Shown: positions 5,634-23,733 of the stretch, piece after piece | Layout of the letters: each line of letters starts with the position of its first letter | Numbering within the stretch: position 1 is the first letter of the stretch | Assembly: GCF_001632845.1 (NCBI RefSeq) | Contig: NZ_CP011994.1 | Coordinates: 2,118,001 to 2,182,000, forward strand | Length of the DNA stretch: 64,000 nt | Source: Ectothiorhodospira sp. BSL-9 | GTDB taxonomy: Bacteria > Pseudomonadota > Gammaproteobacteria > Ectothiorhodospirales > Ectothiorhodospiraceae | Direction of reading: 5' to 3' | The notes under the pieces: generated by a model | Database searches by the model: none | Told to the model about the DNA's origin: nothing | Seen by the model: only the letters and a program-made list of their open reading frames with translations | Made by a program: the position numbers and the translations under genes

Positions 5634-8600
5634 ATGCAGCATCGGCAGGCAGACCGCTGGCAGTTCTGGATCGATCGGGGCGGCACGTTCACCGATGTGA
5701 TCGGCCGCAGGCCGGACGGCACCATGGTCATGCACAAGGTGCTTTCCGAGCACCCGGAGCGCTACCGTGATGCGGCCCTGCAGGGTATCCGCGATCTGCT
5801 GGGCCTGAAGCCGGACGACGCCATTGTGCCGGAGCGGCTGGAGTCGGTGAAGATGGGTACCACCGTGGCCACCAACGCCTTGCTGGAGCGCAAGGGCGAG
5901 CCCACGGTGTTCGTCACCACCCGGGGGTTTGCCGATGCGCTGCGCATTGGCTATCAGAACCGGCCGGACATCTTCGCCCTGGACATCCGGCTGCCCGAGC
6001 AGCTCTACCGGCGGGTGGTGGAAGTGGACGAGCGCATCGCCGCCGACGGCACGGTGCTCGCCACACCCGATCTGCAGCAGGTGCGCACTGCCCTGAAAGA
6101 GGCGCGGGCCGCTGGCTGTACCGCCTGTGCCATCGCCTTCATGCACGGCTACCGCTACACCGCCCATGAGGAACAGGTGGCCGCCATCGCCCGCGAATCC
6201 GGTTTTGAGCAGGTCAGCGTATCCCACCGGGTGAGCCCGCTCATGAACCTGGTGGGCCGGGGGGATACCACGGTGGTGGACGCGTACCTCTCGCCCATGC
6301 TCAAGCGCTATGCCGAGCAGGTGGCTTCGGAGCTGGGCGGCACCCGTCTGATGTTCATGAAAAGCGACGGCGGGCTCACCGATGCCCGCTGGTTTGAAGG
6401 CAAGGACGCCATTCTCTCGGGGCCGGCCGGCGGCATTGTCGGCTGCGTGCGCACCGCGATGATGGCGGGTTTCGAGCAGGTCATCGGCTTCGACATGGGC
6501 GGCACATCCACGGACGTGGCCCATTACAACGGGGAGTTCGAGCGCAGCTTCGAGACCGTGATCGGCGGAGTGCGCATGCGTGTGCCCATGATGCGCATCC
6601 ACACCGTGGCCGCCGGCGGTGGCTCGTGCCTCGGGTTCGACGGCAGCCGCTACCGGGTCGGCCCGGACTCCGCCGGGGCGGACCCGGGGCCGGCCTGCTA
6701 CCGCCGTGGCGGCCCGCTCACCGTGACTGACTGCAACGTCATGCTGGGGCGCCTGCAGCCGGCGTTCTTCCCGCGGGTGTTTGGCCCCGATGGCGACGAA
6801 CCCCTGGATGCCCAGGTTACCCGCGAGGCTTTCCGTGAGCTCGCCGAGCGGATCCACCAGGAGACCGGCGACACGCGCAGCCCGGAGGCGGTGGCCGAGG
6901 GCTACTTGCGCATTGCCGTTGAGAATATGGCCAATGCCATCAAGCAGATCTCGGTGCAGCGGGGGCACGACGTCACCGGCTACACCCTGAACTGCTTCGG
7001 CGGGGCCGGCGGCCAGCATGCCTGCCGGGTCGCCGAGGCCCTGGGCATGGCGCGGGTGCTGATTCATCCCTTCGCCGGGGTGCTGTCCGCCTATGGCATG
7101 GGCCTGGCGGATCTCACCACCCTGCGGGAACTGGCGGTGGACGAGCCGCTGCAGGCCGACACCCTGCAGCGGCTGGCGCCGCGCCTGGAACAGGCCGAGA
7201 GCGCAGGCCGGGAGGAGCTCCTGGCCCAGGGCGCCCCCGCTGATGGCCTGCGTGTCGTGCACAAGCTGCAGTTACGCTACGAGGGTACCGACACCGCGCT
7301 GCTGGTGGATCACGGTGATGCGGACAAGGTTCGGGCAGATTTCGAGACCCTGCATCGCATCCGCTTCGGTTTCACCATGCCGGACAAGCGGGTGTTGATC
7401 GCCGCTGCGGTGATCGAGGTGATTGGCGGCGATGGCACGCTCAGCAGCGAGCCCGAGCAGTCGCCGCGTGGTGCAGGTGACAGCCTGGAGACCCTGGGGC
7501 ACGTGGAGGCCTGGATGGAGGGCGCCTGGCGCACCGTGCCCGTGTACGACCGCGAGACCCTGGCCCCTGCGGACCGCATCGACGGCCCGGCCATCATCCG
7601 CGATCCGGTGTCCACCATTGTCGTGGAGCCTGACTGGTCCCTGCGCGTGAACCCCTATGGCCACCTGTTGCTGGACCGGCAGGCCGCGACGGCGGTGGCC
7701 AGCGTGGGCACCGAGGCGGATCCGGTGATGCTGGAGGTCTTCAACAACCTGTTCATGAGTGTGGCCGAGCAGATGGGCGTGACGCTGCAGAACACCGCCC
7801 AGTCCGCCAACATCAAGGAGCGGCTGGATTTCTCCTGCGCCGTGTTCGACGCCGAGGGCGGCCTGGTGGCCAATGCCCCCCACGTGCCAGTACACCTGGG
7901 TTCCATGGGCGAGAGTGTGCGCTCCATTATCACGGCCCGCCAGGGCACGATGCAGCCTGGCGATGTGTTCATGCTCAACGACCCTTACCAGGGCGGCACC
8001 CACCTGCCGGACATCACGGTGGTGACGCCGGTGTTCGATGATGCCGGCGGCGAGATCATCTTCCATGTGGCCAGCCGTGCCCACCATGCCGACGTGGGCG
8101 GTCTCACCCCGGGGTCCATGCCGCCCCACAGTCGCCATATCGACGAAGAAGGCGTGCTCATCACCAACGTGCAGGTGCTCGACGCCGGAGAGTTGCGGGA
8201 ACAGGCCCTGCGTGATCTCTTCGGCGGCGGCCCGCATCCGGCCCGTAACATCGAGCAGAATCTGAGTGACCTGCGCGCCCAGATCGCCGCCAACAACTGC
8301 GGCGTCAACGAACTGCACCGGCTGGTCGGCCAGTACGGCCTGGATGTGGTGCACGCCTACATGGCCCATGTCCAGGCCAACGCCGCCGAGCAGGTGCGCC
8401 GGGTGCTGGACGTGCTCGGCGACGGCACCTGGGAGAAGCGCCTGGACAGCGGCGCCGTGGTGCGGGTGGCCATCCGCGTGGACCGCGAGGCCCGCTCGGC
8501 GGTGGTGGACTTCAGCGGCTCAAGCCCCCAGCAGGACAGCAACTTCAACGCCCCCCGCGCGGTGACCCGGGCGGCGGTATTGTACGTGCTGCGCACCCTG

Positions 8601-9281
8601 GTCCAGGACAACATCCCGCTGAACGACGGCTGTCTGGAGCCCATCGAGCTGGTGATTCCGGAGGGCTCCATGCTGAGTCCGCGCCATCCCGCTGCGGTGG
8701 TGGCCGGCAATGTGGAGGTGAGTCAGGTGGTGACCGACGCGTTGTATGCGGCCCTGGGGGTGATGGCCAACAGCCAGGGCACCATGAATAACGTCACCTT
8801 CGGCAACCAGGCCCACCAGCACTATGAGACCCTGTGCGGCGGTGCCGGGGCCGGTGACGGCTTCCATGGCGCCAGTGCCGTGCACGTGCACATGACCAAT
8901 AGCCGCCTCACCGATCCGGAGGTGCTGGAGACCCGCTTCCCGGTGCGGCTGGACGGCTTCGCCGTGCGTCACGACTCCGGTGGTGACGGGCAGTGGCGGG
9001 GCGGCGACGGCGTTGAGCGCCGTCTGCGCTTCCTGGAGCCCATGACGGTGGCGGTGCTGGCCAACAGCCGAACGCAAGCGCCGGCGGGGATTCAAGGCGG
9101 CAGTGACGGGGCCTGCGGCGAGCAGTTTGTCCTGCGCGCCAGCGGCAGCCGCGAAGACCTCGGCGGCACGGACCTGGCCGAGATGAGTACCGATGACGTG
9201 TTCGTGATCCGCACCCCTGGCGGCGGCGGATATGGCGCCGGGCAGGTGCGATGCAAGCCGCTCCATAAGCGCACGATATGA
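5634..9281 (+). CDS. ATP-dependent 5-oxoprolinase, fused HyuA/HyuB type
   Basis: A 1215-residue protein of the oxoprolinase/hydantoinase family, as long as the eukaryotic OPLAH fusion. The HyuA-like half (about residues 8-690) starts with [19 protein letters not shown] and has [16 protein letters not shown] and the nucleotide-site motifs [12 protein letters not shown] and GGGS. The HyuB-like half (about 705-1205) includes [15 protein letters not shown] and HHADVGG and ends with TPGGGGYG. The known reaction is ATP-driven hydrolysis of 5-oxo-L-proline to glutamate, a step in glutathione turnover. Some family members act on hydantoins or acetone, so the substrate is assigned with moderate confidence. 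It stands alone, divergent from the MFS gene and convergent with the cyclase gene. A broken copy of its 5' end lies at 15620-15886. Confidence 0.9.
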
Positions 9282-10865: not shown

Positions 10866-13800
10866 ATGTTGCGAAACGATTCGCCCAAGCTCTACATTGA
10901 TGCCGGGCTCAGCCAGGTGAGGGCGGTACTGTACGTCCACGGGTCACCGGTACGTGAATGGGATCTGGCGGCTACCGGTGAATTGCCCAGGCAGGTGCAG
11001 GATAGCGGCCTGAGCGCCGCAAGCCAGGACAGCGCCGTGCGCATCACCGGCAAACTCGCCGAACCGGTACGCCAGCTGCTGGGTCGGGGTACCCTCATCC
11101 TGCCCGCCGCAGCCCTGTGGACTGCCCTGCGTGAGCGCCAGCAGCGTGACTATCCCGGGCAGCGGCTGGGCCTTCTGGAGATCTCCGCTTCCGGCTATCT
11201 GGCCCTTGCCCTGGATTGCCACGGTGGCACCGGTGACACCGGTCTGGTCACCCACCCCCGCTGTGGTGCTGGCTCCGGCACCAACCTCAACCGCGTGCTG
11301 CAAAAGCTGGATGTTCCCCCAGAGGCCGTGGACACGCTGCTCGCCGAATACCTGGGCGACACCGGTCAGGAGCGGCGTTCGGCCCTGCCGGTGCGGGCCG
11401 ATCGCTGTGGCGTCTTTGGGGCCTCGGCCACCATCTCCGACAAGAACCAGGGTATCCCGGTGGCCCATGCCCTGGCGGTCACCCTGAAGTCCGAGGTCAA
11501 CAAGGCCTGTCGAAGGCTGCCGTTGCCTGTGGACCGGGTGCTGCTGTGTGGCGGCCTCTTCCGATGGGCCTTCGCCCGGGATTGCGCCGTGGATGCCCTG
11601 ACCGCCGCCGGTGTACCCCACATCACCCACATGGCCGACGCCAACCTGACGCTGGAGGGGTTGCAGGCGCTGGATGAATCGGTGCCGGATGCGGCCATCG
11701 ACCCATCCCCACCTGCGGCTGTGGCGTCGGCATTTGATTACCCCCCTTTCACCACCCTGGAATCGCAATTGCAGGAACGGGACCAGTTGCGCCGTGTGCC
11801 CGCGCCCGCGTTGGACCCGGATGACTGGCCCCCGGGCCATCCGGTGAACATCGGCCTGGACGTGGGTTCCACCATGGTCAAGATGGTCATCGCCGATGCC
11901 GAGGATGGCCGCCTGCTGCACGCCGCCTCCCAGAGCAACGCCGGCGAGACCATCGCCACGCTGAAGGCCCTTTTCACTGCCCTGCAGGACGTCGGCCACC
12001 GCCACCTGAACTTGGGCCGCATCGGCATCACCGGCAGCGCCCGTTATCAGGTGCGCGAGGCCCTCACCCGGCTTTATCCGGCACTTGAGGGACGGGTGGC
12101 GGTGATGGTGGAGAACTACGCCCATGCCCGAGGCTCCCTGGAGGTGGCCCGCGAGCATGTGCGCGCGTTGGCCGAGGCCGGGCATGACGTGGACACACGC
12201 TGGTGCATCCTGGTGGATATCGGCGGAGAGGACACGAAGATCTCCACCCTGTTGCTGGAGCGCGGCGATCTGTTCGACAACGCCATGAACATCAAGTGCT
12301 CCGCCGGCACCGGCAGCCTCATGGACACCCTGGCCGGCCTGTTTGGCCTGCCCTCGGCCCGCGAGGCCTACGAACAGGCCCAGGCGGCGCCCGGCGCCCA
12401 TGACCTGGATGCCACCTGCTCAGTGTTTCTCATGGAGCATGCCCGTACCCTGCAAGCCCGTGGCGTGGGCAACGATGTGATTCTCGCCTCCGCCTGTTGG
12501 GCGGTGGTGGAGAACATGGCCCGCACGCTATGGAACCAGATCCACCTGCCGCCGCAGGCCGTGGTGCTGCTGCACGGTCAGCCGATGCTGGGTCGGCCGC
12601 TCCCAGCGGCGGTAGTCAGCCGCCTGCAGCGCCTGGTGGGGGCGCCAGTCCATGGCCTGGTGCCCCCCTTGCCTGGTCACCGTGCCTGCCTGGGCCTGCT
12701 GCCGGCACCGGTACAGACCCAGGACGCTGTCAGCGTGGACCTGGACACCTTTATCCAGCGCGAGTACGACAAGCGCATCATCACCTGCAAGGGAGCCGTC
12801 TGCGGTGATCCCGGGGCCCGTTGCAACCGCACCGCCCTGAAGACCATCGATCCCTTGCAGGGCACGCTGCGCCTCACCCTGGGTGGCTGCAGTGCCATCA
12901 ACGAGGCCACCGGCCGCAAGGGCGTGCGGGCGTCGCCCCGGGTGGCCGATCCCTACCAGGCGCTCTGGCGGCAAAGCGACCAGCGCCTGCCGCGCAGCGA
13001 GGCAGCGGACCGACTGGTCATCCCCAGGGCCTTTGCCATTTCCGAATGGGCGGTTTTTTTCGCCGAGTTGTTCACCCAGCTGGATCTGCCCGTGCATGTG
13101 GACAATCCGCAAACCGACGATGTCCTGGCCGGGCAGTCGCGATTTCGCGTGGATACCTGCGCCCCGCATCTGGGGGCCGTGGGCCAGTTGACCCGACTGG
13201 CGGGCGAACCCCACGGCTATATCCTGGCACCGCAGATCGAGTTCCTGCCGCTGACCGGGGCCGGACTGGGACGCAGTTGCACCATCAATCAGGGAGGACT
13301 GGCCACTGCGCGGGCCATGGCGCAGGAGGCCCACCCAAGGGCGCGAATTGAGCTGTTTCACCTCAACCTGCGCCATCCCGATGCGGCCGCCCTGGCCGCC
13401 CAGCTGTGGCCGCAGTTGCGATCGGTGTTCGCCCATTACCACCTCAAGATCGACCGGACCCGCCTGGAGTCGGCCATCGACCAGGCGCTGGCGGCCCAGC
13501 GGGCCTGGCGCCAGGCCCTGCAGGACACCCTGGCCGACCAGTTGGAAGAGGCCATGGCGGATGGTCAGGAGATCGCGCTGGTGCTGGGCCGGGAATACAT
13601 CCTCACCCCGGGGCTCTACGACAGCCACGCCGGTCGCCTGCTGCGGGACCGCGCCCTGGTGCCGGTGCCCGCCCATGTGCTGGACGTGACGGCGGATGAC
13701 GACCTGGCCCATCTTTACTGGCGCAATCCCCAGGTCATGACCACTCTGGTGAGGGCGGTCAGCCGGCGCCGGCTGCATACCCGTCTGCGACATCGCCGCC

Positions 13801-15497
13801 TGCGGCGACTGTTCCAGCAGCTGGAGGCCCCGGACCGTCAGCCACTGGCCCTGGTCTTCGTGTCCACCTTCCTGTGCGGCCCCGACAGCGTCACCCTGCC
13901 GCTGATGGCGGAGTTTGCCCGGCAACGACCCTTCCTGCTGATCCAGTCGGACGCGGCCATCCAGGAACTGGCCCACCTGGAGAACCGGGTCAACACCCAT
14001 GCCCAGCAGGTGCGGCAGTATCTCTCCCAGGGAGTGTGGCAGGCCCCGGAGGAGGGCTTCGAGGTTCAGACCCTGGAGCGGTTCACCGATCTCTCCGACG
14101 GCATCGACCCGGATCAGGACGTACTGGCCCTGCCCACCCTGGCGGACAACCGCTTCGTGACCTCGGTGCTGCACAGCACCCCGCTGACCTGCCTGGACAA
14201 CTACGACGATACCTACGACCTGGAGGCGACGATCCGCCATGGCCGCGCCGCGGCCGGCGAGTCGGTGTGCGCCCCCCTGGCCGCGGTCTACGGCGACACC
14301 CTGTCCCTGGTGGAACGCTTTCGCCGCTTGCGGCAGGACCCGCAATCCCCCCTGTACGGCAAGCGCCGCCTGCTGGTGTTCAACAACAAGGGGCTGGGCC
14401 CCTGTCGCCAGGGTCAGTACGTGGAGACCCACAAACTCCTGTTTCACCGCAGCCCGGGCGACATCCGTGACGAGGTCGGCGGGGGCGAGGCGGAGGATCT
14501 GCTGAGGTTTCTGGTGGCCCTGGAGGATCGGGGTTTTGACGCAGGTCTGGGCAAGGCGGTGTTGCTGCGTTGCATGCAGGGCGCGGTGCTGCAGGGCGTG
14601 TGTCACCAGTTATTGTTCGAGGCAGCGGCCCGCTGCCCCGACACCGATGCCCTGGCGCGTCTGCGCCATGACCATCGTGCCCTGACGGCGGCCATCTTCC
14701 AGCGACAGCGTGAGTTCAAGGCACCGGAACGCTCGTGGTCCTGGTGGCCGGCCTGGAACGGCCACCGACGCGAGTTGCAACGGCCCTTGCGGGATTTTGC
14801 CGGGCGCTGGCTGGCTCGGCCACCGGCCACGGCGTCGCCGCTGAAGATCCATGTGGAAGGGGAGACCTACATGCGGGTGGCCCAGGTGGAAGCGCTGTTC
14901 GACTGCCTGCTCAGCCTGCTCGGACCGGGCCGTTTTCGCCTGACCTACACCCCGGTGTGGTCCTATCTGGACTACAAGAACGCCAGCCGGCGCTGGCGCA
15001 GCCTGGAGACGGTTCGGCAAAGCCACGTCCGGCTGTCCCGTGCCACGGATCCGGATACCCGGTCATCGCTGCGTCGCCTGCGCAACGCCCGCGCGGGTCG
15101 TTATCTTGGGGCCCTGGCCGTGGAATGGGGCTTTCGCCAGTGGCTGGCCCGCCCCCTTTACCGGGCGGCAGGCCTGCCGATGCCCGAGAGCATGACCCGA
15201 GCATTGAACCGCTCCCGGCGACTGATCCCCACCGGTCGTCCGGGCGGAGAGCTCTCCCCCTACGTGGGCGAGGCCCTGGGGAAACTGGAGGCTGGTTACG
15301 ACATCGTCTTCAACGTCGCTCCCGAGGGCTGCATGGTATCCAGCATGGGGGATGCCATGAGCGGGCGCCTCACGAAAGAAGCCGGCGGCCGGGGCCGCAT
15401 CCAGCCCCTGTTCTCCGCCCAGGGTACCCTGGACGAAGACCTGGTCGCCCAGGCCCTGCTCCAGGCCGTGGGCCCCGAGGGGCTCTATCGTCGCTAG
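10866..15497 (+). CDS. acyl-CoA dehydratase activase-type protein, double activase with dehydratase-like domain
   Basis: A 1543-residue protein of the BadF/BadG/BcrA/BcrD/HgdC activator group joined to DUF2229 and HgdB-like regions. Domain 1 (about residues 1-290) is a diverged activase with RCGAGSGTNLN and RCGVFG. Domain 2 (about 325-620) is a canonical ASKHA ATPase: NIGLDVGSTMVKMVIADAED, GITGSARYQV, LVDIGGEDTKI, KCSAGTGSL and CSVF. Both domains keep the two cysteines that in this family hold a bridging [4Fe-4S] cluster. The C-terminal half has further cysteines (CKGAVCGDPGARC, GGCSAIN, DTCAPHLG, GRSCTINQGG) as expected for an iron-sulphur protein. Known activators use ATP to inject low-potential electrons into 2-hydroxyacyl-CoA dehydratases; this giant fusion has no proven substrate. 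The start at 10866 follows a weak AGGAAG; the frame is open further upstream but runs antisense into the cyclase gene. Confidence 0.85.
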   Translation: MLRNDSPKLYIDAGLSQVRAVLYVHGSPVREWDLAATGELPRQVQDSGLSAASQDSAVRITGKLAEPVRQLLGRGTLILPAAALWTALRERQQRDYPGQRLGLLEISASGYLALALDCHGGTGDTGLVTHPRCGAGSGTNLNRVLQKLDVPPEAVDTLLAEYLGDTGQERRSALPVRADRCGVFGASATISDKNQGIPVAHALAVTLKSEVNKACRRLPLPVDRVLLCGGLFRWAFARDCAVDALTAAGVPHITHMADANLTLEGLQALDESVPDAAIDPSPPAAVASAFDYPPFTTLESQLQERDQLRRVPAPALDPDDWPPGHPVNIGLDVGSTMVKMVIADAEDGRLLHAASQSNAGETIATLKALFTALQDVGHRHLNLGRIGITGSARYQVREALTRLYPALEGRVAVMVENYAHARGSLEVAREHVRALAEAGHDVDTRWCILVDIGGEDTKISTLLLERGDLFDNAMNIKCSAGTGSLMDTLAGLFGLPSAREAYEQAQAAPGAHDLDATCSVFLMEHARTLQARGVGNDVILASACWAVVENMARTLWNQIHLPPQAVVLLHGQPMLGRPLPAAVVSRLQRLVGAPVHGLVPPLPGHRACLGLLPAPVQTQDAVSVDLDTFIQREYDKRIITCKGAVCGDPGARCNRTALKTIDPLQGTLRLTLGGCSAINEATGRKGVRASPRVADPYQALWRQSDQRLPRSEAADRLVIPRAFAISEWAVFFAELFTQLDLPVHVDNPQTDDVLAGQSRFRVDTCAPHLGAVGQLTRLAGEPHGYILAPQIEFLPLTGAGLGRSCTINQGGLATARAMAQEAHPRARIELFHLNLRHPDAAALAAQLWPQLRSVFAHYHLKIDRTRLESAIDQALAAQRAWRQALQDTLADQLEEAMADGQEIALVLGREYILTPGLYDSHAGRLLRDRALVPVPAHVLDVTADDDLAHLYWRNPQVMTTLVRAVSRRRLHTRLRHRRLRRLFQQLEAPDRQPLALVFVSTFLCGPDSVTLPLMAEFARQRPFLLIQSDAAIQELAHLENRVNTHAQQVRQYLSQGVWQAPEEGFEVQTLERFTDLSDGIDPDQDVLALPTLADNRFVTSVLHSTPLTCLDNYDDTYDLEATIRHGRAAAGESVCAPLAAVYGDTLSLVERFRRLRQDPQSPLYGKRRLLVFNNKGLGPCRQGQYVETHKLLFHRSPGDIRDEVGGGEAEDLLRFLVALEDRGFDAGLGKAVLLRCMQGAVLQGVCHQLLFEAAARCPDTDALARLRHDHRALTAAIFQRQREFKAPERSWSWWPAWNGHRRELQRPLRDFAGRWLARPPATASPLKIHVEGETYMRVAQVEALFDCLLSLLGPGRFRLTYTPVWSYLDYKNASRRWRSLETVRQSHVRLSRATDPDTRSSLRRLRNARAGRYLGALAVEWGFRQWLARPLYRAAGLPMPESMTRALNRSRRLIPTGRPGGELSPYVGEALGKLEAGYDIVFNVAPEGCMVSSMGDAMSGRLTKEAGGRGRIQPLFSAQGTLDEDLVAQALLQAVGPEGLYRR

Positions 15498-15619: not shown

Positions 15620-15886
15620 TGAGTACGATCCCGGTTGTTCCAGGCACCGGTGAAAATGATGCAGCATCGGCGGGAGGAGCGCTGGCAGTTCTGGGTCAAC
15701 CGGGGCGGCGCATTCACCCATGTGATCGGTCGCAGGCCGGATGGCAGCGTGGTCATGCACAAGGTGCTTTCCGAGCACCCGGAGCGCTGCCGTGATGCGG
15801 CCCTGAAGGGTATCCGCGATCTGCTGGGCCTGGAGCCGGGCGACGCCATTGCGCCGGAGCGGCTGGAGTCGGTGAAGACGGGTAAC
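15620..15886 (+). pseudogene. 5' fragment of the 5-oxoprolinase gene
   Basis: Near-identical to about 5594-5862, covering some 40 bp of leader and the first 75 codons. The fragment reads MQHRREERWQFWVNRGG and [12 protein letters not shown], against [17 protein letters not shown] in the intact gene. The ATG at 15659 corresponds to the intact start. Homology stops abruptly after VKTGN, exactly where the C-terminal coding end of the RBBP9-type hydrolase begins on the other strand. About 94% of the oxoprolinase is missing, so this is a dead fragment. The reading frame stays open to 15955 by chance. The DTGG-like core has changed to NRGGAFTHVIG, consistent with decay. Confidence 0.9.
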
Positions 15887-18265: not shown

Positions 18266-20341
18266 ATGGCTCAGGAAGCAGAGGGTAGGCAGGTACCTCA
18301 GCAGGGGTTGAATCATGTGGTTTTTTATGGCGCGGCCGTCGGTATCATCGTGTTCGCGCTTTGGGCGATGCTGTTTACCGAGCAGGCCAGTGCGGTGATC
18401 GGCGGTGTACTGGCCTGGATTTCCAATACCTTTGGTTGGTTCTATTTTATTGCCGTGGTCGCCTACCTGGTGTTTGTGGTGGCGATCGGGCTTTCACGCT
18501 ACGGCAGTATTCGTCTTGGGCCGGAACACTCGCGGCCCGATTTCAACATCGTCACCTGGGCGGCCATGCTGTTTGCCGCAGGTATCGGCATTGACCTGCT
18601 GTTTTTCTGCGTGGCCGAACCGGTCAGCCATTATCTGGCACCACCGGTGGGTGAGGCAGGAACCGTCGAGGCTGCCCGCCAGGCCATGAGCCTGACCTTT
18701 CTTCACTGGGGTCTTTCAGGGTGGGGTATCTACACGCTGGTGGGCATGTCACTGGCTTTCTTCAGTTACCGCCACGGCCTTCCGCTCACCATTCGCTCCG
18801 CGCTTTATCCAATCATTGGAAAGCGTATCTATGGGCCGATTGGGCATACGGTGGATATTGCTGCCGTGCTGGGCACGGTGTTTGGCATTGCCACGAGTCT
18901 CGGTATTGGCATTATCCAGCTGAATTTTGGGCTCAATTACATGTTCGGCATCGCCGAAAGCACGGTCACGCAAGCTTCTCTGGCGTTGATGATCGTGGTT
19001 TTTGCTGCCATATCGGCCATCACCGGTGTCGAGCGCGGCATCCGGCGATTGTCTGAGTTCAATATGCTGCTGGCACTGTTGCTGATGCTGTTTGTGCTGT
19101 TTTCCGGCAAGACGGTGCTGTTGCTGAACGCCCTCGTGATGAATGTCGGTGACTACCTGTCGAGCTATGTCAGTCTGTCGTTCAATACCTATGCCTTTGA
19201 TCCGCCCACCGACTGGCTCAATGCCTGGACCGTCTTCTTCTGGGCCTGGTGGATTGCCTGGGGGCCGTTTGTTGGCATGTTCCTGGCGCGGATCTCGCGC
19301 GGACGCACGATCCGCGAGTTTGTCGCCGGCACGCTGATTCTCCCTCTGGCCTTCATGATGGCCTGGATGGCCACCATGGGTAACAGTGCCATCGACCTGG
19401 TCGCCACTGGCAGTGGCGTGGAGAACTTCGGCGAGCAGGCCATGAACAACCCCGGCTCATCCATCTACCTTTTCCTGGAGAGCCTGCCCTGGACGGGGGT
19501 GACCACCATTGTGGTGAGCATTCTGGCCATCGTCTTCTTCGTCACCTCGGGCGACTCCGGGTCACTGGTGTTGTCCAACCTGACGTCCGTGATTCGAGAC
19601 CCCAACGAGGACGCCGCTAACTGGATGCGCATCCTGTGGGCTGCCATCATCGGGCTGCTGACCCTTGCCCTGCTGATGACTGATGGCCTGGAAGCCCTGC
19701 AGAGTGCAGTGGTGATCATGGGGCTGCCCTTTGCCGTGGTGCTGTTCCTGATGATGCTCGGTCTGTTCAAGGGTCTCAGGCTGGAGGGGCTGAAGTTCGA
19801 CAGTCACCAGCGGAGTCTTTCCGGCCATCTTTCTGGACGCACCGGACGGGTCAGCCAGGATGGATGGAAGAAGCGCCTGGCGCGTGCCATGCACTTTCCC
19901 AGTCGCGATGAGGCGCAACGCTTCCTTGCCGAGACTGCCCGACCGGCCATGGAGCAGGTGCGGGATCAGTTGCAAGAGCAGTCCATCAAGGCTGAAGTTA
20001 AGTTCGAGAAGGGTGAGTCATTGCATATCGCGCTGACCGTTGATCTGGGTGGTGAGCAGGACTTCACCTACCAGATCTGGCCGTTCAAGGCGCGCATGCC
20101 CGCATTCCCACTGCGCGCCACCCGGCCCCGGGCCAATTACTATCGGCTTGAAGTCCACCTCAGCGAAGGGGGGCAAGGTTACGATGTGGCCGGCTACAGC
20201 AAGGAGCAGTTGATTGCCGATGTGCTTGACCAGTACGAACGCCATCTGGACTTCCTGCATTCCCGGCAGCACAGTCTCGGTGGCCATACGCAGGTTCCCG
20301 AGGGGCCTGACAAGGCCGCAGGAAAGGAGTCGAACTCATGA
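18266..20341 (+). CDS. betT: BCCT choline/betaine transporter, BetT type
   Basis: A 691-residue BCCT family transporter with 12 predicted membrane helices. It has the family signature FWAWWIAWGPFVGMFLARIS followed by RGRTIREF and the GIGIDLLFFCVAEP segment. A long hydrophilic C-terminal tail (about residues 525-691) is typical of BetT, where it sets the osmotic response. It imports choline using the ion gradient. AGGAGGGGG precedes the ATG. The gene is translationally coupled to betA (ATGA overlap), which assigns choline as the likely substrate. No betI or betB is adjacent. Confidence 0.92.
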   Translation: MAQEAEGRQVPQQGLNHVVFYGAAVGIIVFALWAMLFTEQASAVIGGVLAWISNTFGWFYFIAVVAYLVFVVAIGLSRYGSIRLGPEHSRPDFNIVTWAAMLFAAGIGIDLLFFCVAEPVSHYLAPPVGEAGTVEAARQAMSLTFLHWGLSGWGIYTLVGMSLAFFSYRHGLPLTIRSALYPIIGKRIYGPIGHTVDIAAVLGTVFGIATSLGIGIIQLNFGLNYMFGIAESTVTQASLALMIVVFAAISAITGVERGIRRLSEFNMLLALLLMLFVLFSGKTVLLLNALVMNVGDYLSSYVSLSFNTYAFDPPTDWLNAWTVFFWAWWIAWGPFVGMFLARISRGRTIREFVAGTLILPLAFMMAWMATMGNSAIDLVATGSGVENFGEQAMNNPGSSIYLFLESLPWTGVTTIVVSILAIVFFVTSGDSGSLVLSNLTSVIRDPNEDAANWMRILWAAIIGLLTLALLMTDGLEALQSAVVIMGLPFAVVLFLMMLGLFKGLRLEGLKFDSHQRSLSGHLSGRTGRVSQDGWKKRLARAMHFPSRDEAQRFLAETARPAMEQVRDQLQEQSIKAEVKFEKGESLHIALTVDLGGEQDFTYQIWPFKARMPAFPLRATRPRANYYRLEVHLSEGGQGYDVAGYSKEQLIADVLDQYERHLDFLHSRQHSLGGHTQVPEGPDKAAGKESNS

Positions 20342-22035
20342 CTGAGTCACGCTTTGAAGAGGCATTCGACTACATTATCGTGGGTGCCGGTTCTGCTGGC
20401 TGTGTGCTTGCCGATCGGCTCAGTGCCGACGGCCAGTACTCGGTGCTGGTCCTGGAGTTTGGCGGTAAGGATAGTTCGATTTTTATTCAGATGCCCACGG
20501 CTTTTTCCATACCGCTGAACAAGCCGAAGTATGACTGGGGCTTGTACTGCGAGCCCGAGCCGGGCCTGGCGGGCCGGCGCCTGCACCATGCCCGTGGCAA
20601 GGTGATTGGCGGGTCCTCGTCGATCAACGGCATGGCCTATGTGCGCGGTTGTGCAGGAGACTTCCAGGAGTGGGAGCAGGCGGGTGCCAAAGGGTGGGGC
20701 TATCAGGATGTGCTGCCCTATTTTCGCCGTGCCGAGGATTGTGTGTACGGCGCGGATGATTATCGCGATACCGACGGCCCGGTCGGTGTGTGCAATGGCA
20801 ATAACATGCGCAACCCGCTTTATCGCGCCTTCATTGAGGCAGGCCGACAGGCCGGCTATGGCGAGACCAGCGATTACAACGGCTATCGGCAGGAAGGCTT
20901 TTGCCGCATGGACATGAGTGTGCGCAACGGGGTGCGCAGTTCGACCGCCAATGCCTACCTCAAGCCAGCACTCAAGCGCAGCAACCTCACGCTGCGCATG
21001 CATGCGCTGACCACGCGGGTGGTGATGCAGGGCAGGCGAGCTGTTGGCGTGGAGTACCGGCACAAGGGCCAGGCTTACCGGGTAGGCGCCAATCGCGAAG
21101 TCATCCTCAGTGCCAGTACCTTCAATTCACCCAAGCTGCTGATGCTTTCCGGTATCGGTCCGGCAGGTCAGCTACGTGAGCACGGTATCGAGGTGGTGCA
21201 CGAACTGGCCGGCGTGGGGCAGAACCTGCAGGACCATCTGGAGGTCTGGGTGCAGCAGCGCTGTACGCAGCCGATCACTCTCAACGGCTGGCTGAATCCC
21301 TTGGGCCAGTTGCGGATTGGTGCTCAATGGTTCTTCGCCCGTTCCGGCCTGGGTGCGACCAACCATTTCGAGTCCAATGCCTACATCCGCAGTCGGCCCG
21401 GTCTGAAATGGCCGGATCTGCAATATCATTTCCTGGCCGGGGCCATCGCCTACGATGGTAGCAAGGCCGTCAAGGGTCACGGTTTTCAGGTGCATCTGGG
21501 GGCCAATAAACCGCTGAGTCGCGGTGCGGTCACGCTGAAGTCCGCCAACCCCGAGGAGGCCCCGCGACTGGTGTTCAACTATCTGCAGGAAGAGGCCGAC
21601 CGCCAGGCCTATCGAGACGGTGTGCGACTGACGCGCGAAATATTCGCTCAGCCCGCTTTCGATCCATACCGTGGCGATGAGGTCTCACCGGGGCCGAGTG
21701 TGCATACTGATGATGAAATCGATGACTGGGTGGCGCAGACGGCCGCAACCGCCTACCACGCCTGTGGCACGTGCCGCATGGGCGAGGACGAGAACGCAGT
21801 GGTCGACTCGCAGTGTCGGGTGCGTGGTGTGGAGGGGCTGCGAGTGGTGGATTCATCCATCATGCCCACGGTGACCAACGGCAACATCAACGCACCCACC
21901 ATCATGATCGGCGAGAAGGCCGCCGACCACATCCTGGGCCGCGATCCGCTGCCACGCTCCGAGGTGCCTGTGTTCGAGCCAGACGGATGGCAGCAGCAAC
22001 AGCGTGAAAACGGGCCTGGGGTGATGTCCAGCTAA
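20338..22035 (+). CDS. betA: choline dehydrogenase, GMC oxidoreductase
   Basis: A 565-residue flavoprotein. The N-terminal FAD-binding fold is YIIVGAGSAGCVLADRLS. The GMC signatures are HARGKVIGGSSSINGMAYVR and, near residue 255, REVILSASTFNSPKLLMLSG. The C-terminal catalytic region has YHACGTCRMG and ends with NGNINAPTIMIGEKAAD. It oxidises choline to betaine aldehyde, and BetA proteins can also carry out the second step to glycine betaine, which matters because no betB lies here. Membrane association via the respiratory chain is usual. Overlap with betT indicates one operon for osmoprotectant supply. Other GMC alcohol dehydrogenases are similar, so the link to betT is the best evidence for substrate. 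Confidence 0.9.
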   Translation: MTESRFEEAFDYIIVGAGSAGCVLADRLSADGQYSVLVLEFGGKDSSIFIQMPTAFSIPLNKPKYDWGLYCEPEPGLAGRRLHHARGKVIGGSSSINGMAYVRGCAGDFQEWEQAGAKGWGYQDVLPYFRRAEDCVYGADDYRDTDGPVGVCNGNNMRNPLYRAFIEAGRQAGYGETSDYNGYRQEGFCRMDMSVRNGVRSSTANAYLKPALKRSNLTLRMHALTTRVVMQGRRAVGVEYRHKGQAYRVGANREVILSASTFNSPKLLMLSGIGPAGQLREHGIEVVHELAGVGQNLQDHLEVWVQQRCTQPITLNGWLNPLGQLRIGAQWFFARSGLGATNHFESNAYIRSRPGLKWPDLQYHFLAGAIAYDGSKAVKGHGFQVHLGANKPLSRGAVTLKSANPEEAPRLVFNYLQEEADRQAYRDGVRLTREIFAQPAFDPYRGDEVSPGPSVHTDDEIDDWVAQTAATAYHACGTCRMGEDENAVVDSQCRVRGVEGLRVVDSSIMPTVTNGNINAPTIMIGEKAADHILGRDPLPRSEVPVFEPDGWQQQQRENGPGVMSS

Positions 22036-22090
22036 GACCTGAGAAGACGGGGAGATGAGGGGCCGCTGTCGGCTCTTAACGATGCGGGGC

Positions 22091-22160
22091 GGGCAGGCGG
22101 TCGGGAGGCGAGGGTTTCGGTCGGGTTGGAATAAAGCTACCTGCAAATCCTGAGCTCACT
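22091..22160 (-). pseudogene. deletion remnant of a second RBBP9-type hydrolase locus
   Basis: Bases 22091-22125 match 16082-16115 inside the hydrolase gene, and 22126-22160 match about 16529-16562 upstream of that gene, same orientation and order. About 410 bp that separates the two pieces at the intact locus is missing here. The remnant fills the space before the CDGSH/glutamate-synthase gene. Sequence has drifted by several substitutions. Confidence 0.7.
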
Positions 22161-22173
22161 GTTAGGGGGCGAG

Positions 22174-23733
22174 ATGACGAAGCCAATAGTCGCGGCAGTA
22201 AAACCCGTAGGTGTCCCGCTCGAAAAGGACAAGGAGTATTACTTTTGTCACTGCGGGCGCTCCAGCGATCAACCCTTCTGCGATGGGTCGCACCGGGGGA
22301 CCGGCATCGAGCCGATCGCGTTCAAGCCCCGCAAGGATGGTAAGAACTGGCTTTGCATGTGCAAGCAGTCGGGCGATCTTCCCTATTGCGACGGCACCCA
22401 CGCACAGGTGCCGGAGAGCGCGGTGGGAGAGGGATTCGATGGTGTGAGCGATGACGCGGAAAAGGCCGGCGATGGTGCCGCTCCCGCGCCGCGCAACAGC
22501 GAGACGGAACCCCACGTAGAGTTCATCCATGCACTCGCGCGCGGCGGGCTGGAGGAGGTGGGTGCGATGGGGCCCACGGTCGCCATGGGCGTGCCGCGGG
22601 ATCGCACGCCATCCTGGGATGACATCCAGATCCTCACCGCGCAGTTCGCGCGCCGCCCGCTTCCCAGCGATGTGGATGTGGATAGCACGCTGGTGATTGG
22701 GCCGGAGTCCCGGCGTCCGTTGCGTCTGGAGATGCCGCTGTTGGTCACGGACATGAGTTTTGGCTCGCTGTCCCGCGAGGCCAAGATCGCGCTGGCGCGA
22801 GGCGCCGAACAGGCAGGTACCGGAATCTGCTCTGGCGAAGGCGGGATGCTTCCGGAAGAGCAGGCCGAGAATTCGCGCTACCTCTTCGAACTGGGGCCGG
22901 CGCGTTATGGCTACTCCGAGGAGGTGCTCGAGAAGGTGCAGGCCTTCCACTTCAAGGGCGGCCAAGGCGCGAAGACCGGTGTCGGCGGCTTGTTGCCGGG
23001 TGCCAAGGTCTCAGAAGAGATCGCCAAGGTGCGCGGCATCAAGGCCGGCCAGGACGCGGCGTCTCCACCGGTGATCCCGGACCTGGAAACGCCGGCTGAT
23101 TTCAGGCGATTTGCCGATTCAATCCGCGAACGAACCGGCGGCATTCCCATTGGCTTCAAGCTCTCCGCGAACCACATCGAACAGGACCTGGCCTTCGCGC
23201 TCGAAGCGGGCGCTGACTACGTGATCCTCGATGGCCGCGGGGGCGGCACCGGGGCCGCGCCGGCCCTGCTCAGGGATCACATCAGCGTGCCGACCATCCC
23301 GGCACTGGTGCGCGCACGGCGTTATCTGGATCTTCGCGGTGCGAGCGGAAAGGTCACCCTGATCATCACCGGTGGACTGCGTACACCGGCAGATTTCGTC
23401 AAGGCCCTGGCGCTTGGCGCCGATGGCATTGCGCTGGGCAATAGTGCCATTCAGGCGGTGGGCTGCGTGGGTGCGCGCATCTGCCACACCAACCGTTGCC
23501 CAACAGGCGTCGCGACTCAGGACCCGGAACTGCGCAAGCGTCTGGATCCGGAGGCGGGCAGCGCCGGACTCGCCCGCTTCCTCGGGGCCTCCCTGCAGTT
23601 GATGCAGGTGCTGGCCCGTGCCACTGGCCGGACACGCCTGGCGGACCTCGATCGGGATGACCTGATCACCTTCAATCGCGACCTGATGGAAATGGCCCAC
23701 GTGCCCTACGTCGGCGACTCCAGCAACGGTTGA
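22174..23733 (+). CDS. CDGSH iron-sulphur domain fused to glutamate synthase-type FMN domain
   Basis: A 519-residue fusion. Residues 1-80 hold two CDGSH-type cluster motifs, CHCGRSSDQPFCDGSH and CMCKQSGDLPYCDGTH, each able to bind a [2Fe-2S] cluster with 3Cys-1His ligation. From about residue 160 there is a glutamate-synthase central/FMN domain: PLLVTDMSFGSLSREAKIAL, GICSGEGGM, GGQGAKTGVGGLLPG, DGRGGGTGAAPA, TGGLRTPADFVKALALGAD, and CxxxxCxxG-like ICHTNRCPTGVATQDP, which in the family binds an Fe-S cluster. There is no glutaminase domain, so it is not a full GOGAT. It is probably an FMN/Fe-S oxidoreductase in which the CDGSH part passes electrons (inference). The start is a solid ATG after GGGGG. 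It is convergent with the CNNM gene, 18 bp apart. Confidence 0.85.
   Translation: MTKPIVAAVKPVGVPLEKDKEYYFCHCGRSSDQPFCDGSHRGTGIEPIAFKPRKDGKNWLCMCKQSGDLPYCDGTHAQVPESAVGEGFDGVSDDAEKAGDGAAPAPRNSETEPHVEFIHALARGGLEEVGAMGPTVAMGVPRDRTPSWDDIQILTAQFARRPLPSDVDVDSTLVIGPESRRPLRLEMPLLVTDMSFGSLSREAKIALARGAEQAGTGICSGEGGMLPEEQAENSRYLFELGPARYGYSEEVLEKVQAFHFKGGQGAKTGVGGLLPGAKVSEEIAKVRGIKAGQDAASPPVIPDLETPADFRRFADSIRERTGGIPIGFKLSANHIEQDLAFALEAGADYVILDGRGGGTGAAPALLRDHISVPTIPALVRARRYLDLRGASGKVTLIITGGLRTPADFVKALALGADGIALGNSAIQAVGCVGARICHTNRCPTGVATQDPELRKRLDPEAGSAGLARFLGASLQLMQVLARATGRTRLADLDRDDLITFNRDLMEMAHVPYVGDSSNG

Follow-up and report, generated by a model that had tools for sequence, protein, structure and literature searches.

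A giant orphan gene of Ectothiorhodospira sp. BSL-9 probably encodes an activase and a dehydratase-type reductase in one chain, with one ATP site very probably lost

What reaction could be served by a protein that appears to carry both halves of a cluster-bridged activase in one polypeptide, and that has no conserved pathway gene beside it? This question is raised by the open reading frame at 10866..15497 of the window, the 64,000-nucleotide stretch of Ectothiorhodospira sp. BSL-9 DNA which was analyzed; the gene lies on the + strand, as do all of its features located below. The frame encodes 1543 aa in a genome consisting of a single contig of 3,550,080 bases. Ectothiorhodospira is a genus of anoxygenic phototrophs. 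The upstream frame is open back to 10641, while the alignment of the relatives begins at about 10866. The closest named relatives are in Ectothiorhodospira lacustris (94% identity) and in E. shaposhnikovii and E. haloalkaliphila (84%). The gene is real: the frame is beyond chance because other phyla hold full-length relatives (41-49% identity) and because dN/dS is low, about 0.15-0.19 across the length of the gene in Ectothiorhodospira copies. These ratios indicate that the giant gene is under purifying selection.

The computed order along the chain is activase domain 1 (aa 1-290), activase domain 2 (aa 326-616), a four-cysteine linker (aa 641-675), and the two halves of a putative catalytic part, half 1 (aa 699-1052) and half 2 (aa 1053-1543). 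Based on a Pfam search, the query of which began one residue earlier than the 1543-aa protein, BcrAD_BadFG (PF01869) was identified at aa 330-573 (36.7 bits, cut-off 31.5) and DUF2229 (PF09989) at aa 720-929 (77 bits, cut-off 29.4). Both were matched in 17/17 full-length rows of the subfamily, for which 20 loci were recovered in a scan of GTDB genomes. Profile comparison (hhalign) of the subfamily with 21 other long members of the family gave E values of 6e-10 for domain 1, 1e-31 for domain 2, 7.5e-24 for half 1 and 5e-17 for half 2.

Domain 2 (11841..12713) is an activase domain with intact ATP motifs. Its phosphate-1 loop, DVGST, is located at 11859..11873 and its phosphate-2 motif, GGEDTK, at 12222..12239; D.GS and GGEDTK were each present in 20/20 subfamily rows. 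The score with the NCBIfam activase model TIGR00241 was 69.1 bits, under its cut-off of 125.4. Activase structures matched the domain at VIA-align Z scores of 21.6-24.8 (24.8 to 9gai_O, 24.0 to 4eht_B and 21.6 to 7yyl_E). In fold, ATP motifs and paired cysteines it resembles the activators HgdC (1hux), HadI (4eht), DCCP-R (7yyl) and MbdPQ (9gai); these are separate subunits, whereas the window protein joins two dissimilar domains, only one of them with ATP motifs, in a single polypeptide.

The domain without these motifs is domain 1 (10866..11735), a degenerate ASKHA activase domain. Its relationship is indicated by the profile match to domain 1 of the long family, and in the model its order of strands and helices parallels that of domain 2. 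The former phosphate-1 loop (10899..10910) reads D12-A-G- without the Ser/Thr of active members (DxGST), so that D.GS was found in 0/20 subfamily rows covering the site, and the phosphate-2 motif GG[E/Q]DxK is replaced by SASGY (aa 107-111; 11184..11198) in 20/20. The earlier note, which was made from the sequence alone, had spoken of two ATPase domains; at the level of sequence this description is not supported for domain 1. Pfam and NCBIfam placed an activase match in domain 2 only, and none in domain 1. Among the PDB matches listed, where one domain fills the lists, there was none of its own for domain 1, and within the subfamily the two activase domains did not match each other significantly by profile (E about 0.025-0.03). 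Nevertheless the cluster cysteines of domain 1 are kept in every covering subfamily row.

Invariant positions in the subfamily number 56/290 in domain 1 against 89/291 in domain 2, those of domain 1 including SASGY, W234, R238 and C240, and dN/dS in domain 1 is 0.15-0.24 (0.21-0.24 in pairs which include the window copy). Purifying selection and invariant residues together mark domain 1 as constrained, and therefore not as a decaying leftover. The same two observations would agree with a symmetric activase, in which non-standard residues (SASGY, W234, R238, C240 and D243, all invariant in the subfamily rows) would still let domain 1 bind ATP, each cycle then consuming two nucleotides like that of a homodimeric activase. 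This we regard as improbable, since both standard phosphate motifs are missing from every row and no ATPase model matches the domain. Judged from its motifs, domain 1 very probably does not function as an ATPase, having lost its ATP site and kept its cluster cysteines; its rebuilt invariant residues could bind another ligand.

In activases one [4Fe-4S] cluster is bridged by two cysteines from each subunit. The candidate ligands of such a cluster in the window protein are Cys133 (11262..11264) and Cys181 (11406..11408) of domain 1 and Cys478 (12297..12299) and Cys518 (12417..12419) of domain 2. These four were found in 79/79 long proteins, and the aligned cysteines are consistent with bridging by two from each subunit. 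The proposal that each ASKHA domain retains two cysteines was confirmed, and the proposal that both halves of a cluster-bridged activase lie in one chain is supported. A model of aa 1-690 (pLDDT 83, pTM 0.83) suggests that the two activase domains have a defined mutual arrangement, with the lowest pLDDT near the cysteine loops of domain 1 (56 at residues 131-140 and 46 at 181-190).

The earlier note had also described the C-terminal half as rich in cysteine motifs, like a built-in electron acceptor. The richness was confirmed, with 15/26 cysteines lying within aa 621-1543, of which 10 are conserved ligand candidates; the comparison with an acceptor falls short, since this half appears to be a catalytic component of the benzoyl-CoA reductase (BCR)/HAD type, with three conserved cysteines in each of its halves besides the four of the linker. 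The linker cysteines C641, C646, C653 and C675 (12786..12890) are predicted to hold an extra Fe-S cluster. C646, C653 and C675, together with C765, C805 and C1004 of half 1, occur in 79/79 long proteins. C641 can be aligned within the subfamily only, the other long proteins having a further linker cysteine at a shifted place. The triplet of half 2 (C1135, C1180 and C1489) is present in 78/79, the exception, L099, having a gap there (its frame is 1208 aa), and C1257 is conserved within the subfamily.

The loss of the domain 1 motif is a trend wider than the subfamily. Among the 79 long proteins aligned (17 of the subfamily and 62 others) GG[E/Q]DxK was found in domain 2 of 79/79 but in domain 1 of only 46/79. 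Of the 62 others, 16 also lack it in domain 1 (L094-L098, L116, L123-L125, L127, L129-L133 and L138, the last deviating only as GGEESK), and 0/62 lack the domain 2 motif or any activase cysteine. The fraction 16/62 is not a census, because 59 of these proteins were chosen by frame length from one phylum, one (L099, partial) comes from a family relative, and plasmid records supplied the other two. The 17-row subfamily set used for the cysteine counts and the tree is without L023, L025, L026 and L031 (partial). The frame-broken contig piece L030 was excluded from all alignments and the split gene L012 from the 79-protein comparison; L026 entered one alignment as a 759-aa piece only, alignment A5 is without L025 and L031, and alignment A4 is without L026.

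When domain 1 was left out of the tree, the subfamily members grouped together with support 100, their common branch measuring 2.77 changes per column. Of the 16 other proteins with a lost motif, 14 form a separate group within the rest of the tree (support 85, not starred); this tree is a quick, unrooted one with long-branch warnings, and L099 was left out. On its face, the natural reading is that the domain 1 ATP motif has been lost at least twice independently.

The catalytic part was investigated with a model of aa 612-1543 (pLDDT 76, pTM 0.77). Half 1 (12960..14021), which contains DUF2229 and the conserved C765, C805 and C1004, has a HadC/BzdN/DCCP-like fold. The best match of aa 699-1052 was chain D of (R)-2-hydroxyisocaproyl-CoA dehydratase, 3o3m_D (VIA-align Z 15.3, rmsd 3.8, 281 residues aligned), followed by chains of HAD, BzdNO, DCCP and MbdON at Z 10.9-14.8, with unrelated rows from 9.7 down. 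This assignment is based on VIA-align and profiles, not on Foldseek, which returned nothing below E 1e-3 for the C-terminal model. Half 2 (14022..15494), with the conserved C1135, C1180 and C1489, is homologous to the C-terminus of the long family according to the profile comparison given above; for the last ~490 aa no clear structural match was seen among the PDB matches listed, where one domain fills the list. The two halves resemble a duplication, because in the long family their profiles match each other at E 3.4e-12. Seven cross pairs served as profile controls, five mismatched ones giving E 0.07-0.46 and two half-1/half-2 pairs 2.4e-6 and 0.02. No match to PF06050 (HGD-D) was found in the protein at E up to 1, and profile comparison of the subfamily catalytic halves with four HgdB-type and four HgdA-type proteins (PF06050-type) was not significant. 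The C-terminal half is nonetheless probably a BCR/HAD-type catalytic component fused to the activase. The catalytic subunits of HadBC, BzdNO, DCCP and MbdON share the fold of half 1 and the three-cysteine pattern; unlike the window protein, they are separate subunits.

The number of cysteines bears on the kind of cluster. In BzdO and HadB a [4Fe-4S] cluster is bound through three cysteines, and in BzdN a double cubane through six (PMC11971306). The three cysteines of each half, in similar order, would match the ligation in BzdO and HadB, and since three are conserved per half the analogy points to a single cubane with an open site in each. A reductase of the DCCP type, with a double cubane and with a small molecule (acetylene, azide or hydrazine, for instance) as its substrate in place of a CoA ester, is therefore given little credence, less than the symmetric activase. 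In its favor, the structures matched by the fold of half 1 include DCCP chains (6eno at Z 13.7 and 7yyl_B at Z 13.8), and in small Falkowbacteria genomes the gene likewise stands as an orphan; but a double cubane needs six cysteines, as in BzdN (PMC11971306), against three conserved across the long family per half, with C1257 in addition in the subfamily.

The subfamily is rare and scattered. Host records include Ectothiorhodospira, Chromatiales, Burkholderiales, deltaproteobacterial, Desulfocapsaceae, Syntrophobacterales, Chloroflexi, Bacteroidota, Falkowbacteria and a Solemya symbiont, among others; many are metagenome bins, and some lineage labels may therefore be wrong. In the phylum of the window genome 1/398 genomes has a member, namely this genome alone, and in the order 5/47 have one. 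The phylum of the Falkowbacteria genome L022 gave 1/286 and that of L017 1/297, the sole match in each being the centre genome itself. One contig from a viral collection (L033) carries the gene and is probably host DNA, while phage records gave partial matches only, at 23-28% identity, to the activase/DUF2229 region.

No gene family was found beside the giant gene across lineages, and the neighbors are not conserved within Ectothiorhodospira either. When 260 neighboring ORFs from the window and 21 loci (L013-L033) were clustered in search of a conserved operon or pathway partner, no family occurred in more than 3/22 sources; some of these ORFs are spurious because ORF calling was greedy in GC-rich DNA. 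A defense system was considered as well, and PADLOC gave no match. Several observations were made on the surroundings. In the window, a 226 bp piece at 15659-15884 (+) is a truncated second copy, with 91% identity, of the start of the hydantoinase/5-oxoprolinase gene at 5634-9281, so that the giant gene and a GGDEF-like gene (named by eye) sit between the full gene and its truncated copy; the piece is possibly the trace of a duplication or insertion. The genes at 18266-23733 (a BCCT transporter, a GMC oxidoreductase and a glutamate-synthase-like protein with CDGSH iron-binding motifs) are fitting for an osmolyte-using halophile. In the two deltaproteobacterial loci a related gene lies directly upstream of the giant gene (L017 8621-9922 and L018 8617-9957), and CysD/CysN-like genes (named by eye) are near it.

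The earlier note had stated that no dehydratase is adjacent. Indeed no separate one is adjacent, and a search for a second classical dehydratase elsewhere in the genome found none, PF06050 being absent; the giant protein, however, carries a module with a dehydratase fold within its own chain. PF01869 is matched in this genome by the giant gene only. Nor does the gene track with a separate 2-hydroxyacyl-CoA dehydratase, PF06050 being absent from 10/14 searched genomes which carry the subfamily, this one included. These results bear on the possibility that the protein is nothing more than a fused version of a classical enzyme, either an (R)-2-hydroxyacyl-CoA dehydratase or a benzoyl-CoA-type reductase, from a catabolic pathway already known. 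The NCBI name of its relatives and the top fold matches (HadC and BzdNO) speak for it; the lack of pathway neighbors common to the loci, the patchy distribution and the missing PF06050 speak against it, and it is considered doubtful, though the likeliest of the alternatives.

Relics of the giant gene (aa ~1416-1463) were observed in two sister Ectothiorhodospira genomes (L006 1504-1611 and L009 1498-1632), one of them about 1 kb upstream of an intact copy, and may be read as gene loss or as an old duplicate. Such relics, and the patchy presence within the genus, are what would be expected if the gene were non-catalytic or decaying. We hold this to be very improbable in view of the dN/dS of 0.15-0.19 over the gene and the invariant ligand cysteines.

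The fused architecture is already in print. Proteins of Listeria (WP_014600632.1, 1475 aa) and Collinsella (WP_271761619.1, 1593 aa), annotated as "2-hydroxyacyl-CoA dehydratase", are co-linear with the window protein: each is a single chain, of a kind that is widespread, with two BcrAD_BadFG domains, DUF2229 and a C-terminal half, alike in domain order, cluster-cysteine positions and length. They differ in having only 20-22% identity to it, and the long branch sets the subfamily apart; SASGY is found in every covering subfamily row, whereas the domain 1 motif is missing from only a minority of the other long proteins. In Ruminococcus MAGs two YjiL-type ATPase domains are fused with DUF2229, a fusion which its authors suggest to be an acyl-CoA reductase of undefined exact function (PMC11362221). 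It is like the window protein in its two ATPase domains and DUF2229 catalytic half, but there a gene of its own encodes the second, Hgd-D-like half (compare the split gene L012), while in the window protein this half is fused. Nothing on this subfamily or on one-sided loss of an ATP site was found in the titles, abstracts and passages of the literature searched, which takes in few subscription papers, and both are apparently new as far as these searches go.

The explanation which we favor, with reasonable though not full confidence, is a self-contained and lopsided BCR/HAD-type system, an ATP-driven pump and a reductase/dehydratase in one chain, with one ATP site per bridging cluster. Domains 1 and 2 would form a pseudo-dimeric activase with one [4Fe-4S] cluster held between C133/C181 and C478/C518. 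ATP would be bound and hydrolyzed by domain 2, and domain 1 would give half of the cluster site; as the ATP site of domain 1 is lost, the pump would have a single one for each bridging cluster. A low-potential donor would supply the electron, perhaps via the linker cluster, to the cluster bridging domains 1 and 2, and movement driven by ATP in domain 2 would then pass it to the catalytic clusters of the fused HadB/HadC-like halves, where a substrate would be reduced or dehydrated. Whereas the domain order, the folds of domain 2 and half 1, the cysteine conservation and the motif loss were computed, we infer the cluster types, the electron path with the order of its first steps, the gating and stoichiometry by a single ATP, and the chemistry. 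A self-sufficient enzyme fits the absence of conserved neighbors.

More speculatively, and as a possibility that we judge unlikely on balance, one activase domain of long BCR/HAD-type chains may repeatedly have dropped its ATP site with the shared cluster site left intact, a single ATP per bridging cluster being enough for electron transfer at very low potential. The clade of the Ectothiorhodospira/Falkowbacteria type would then have fixed the loss completely and turned the emptied pocket, rebuilt with SASGY, W234, R238 and C240, to a different use, for instance as a surface by which the fused reductase is permanently docked or sensed, in the service of a CoA-independent reaction. With one plausible ATP site in a covalent pseudo-dimer, the protein would offer a direct route to the number of ATP that pumps of this kind spend on each electron. 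In one sampled phylum, that of the deltaproteobacterial genome L017, the long single-chain form is common (PF09989 in 78/99 genomes), yet DUF2229 is named in only one paper of the literature searched.
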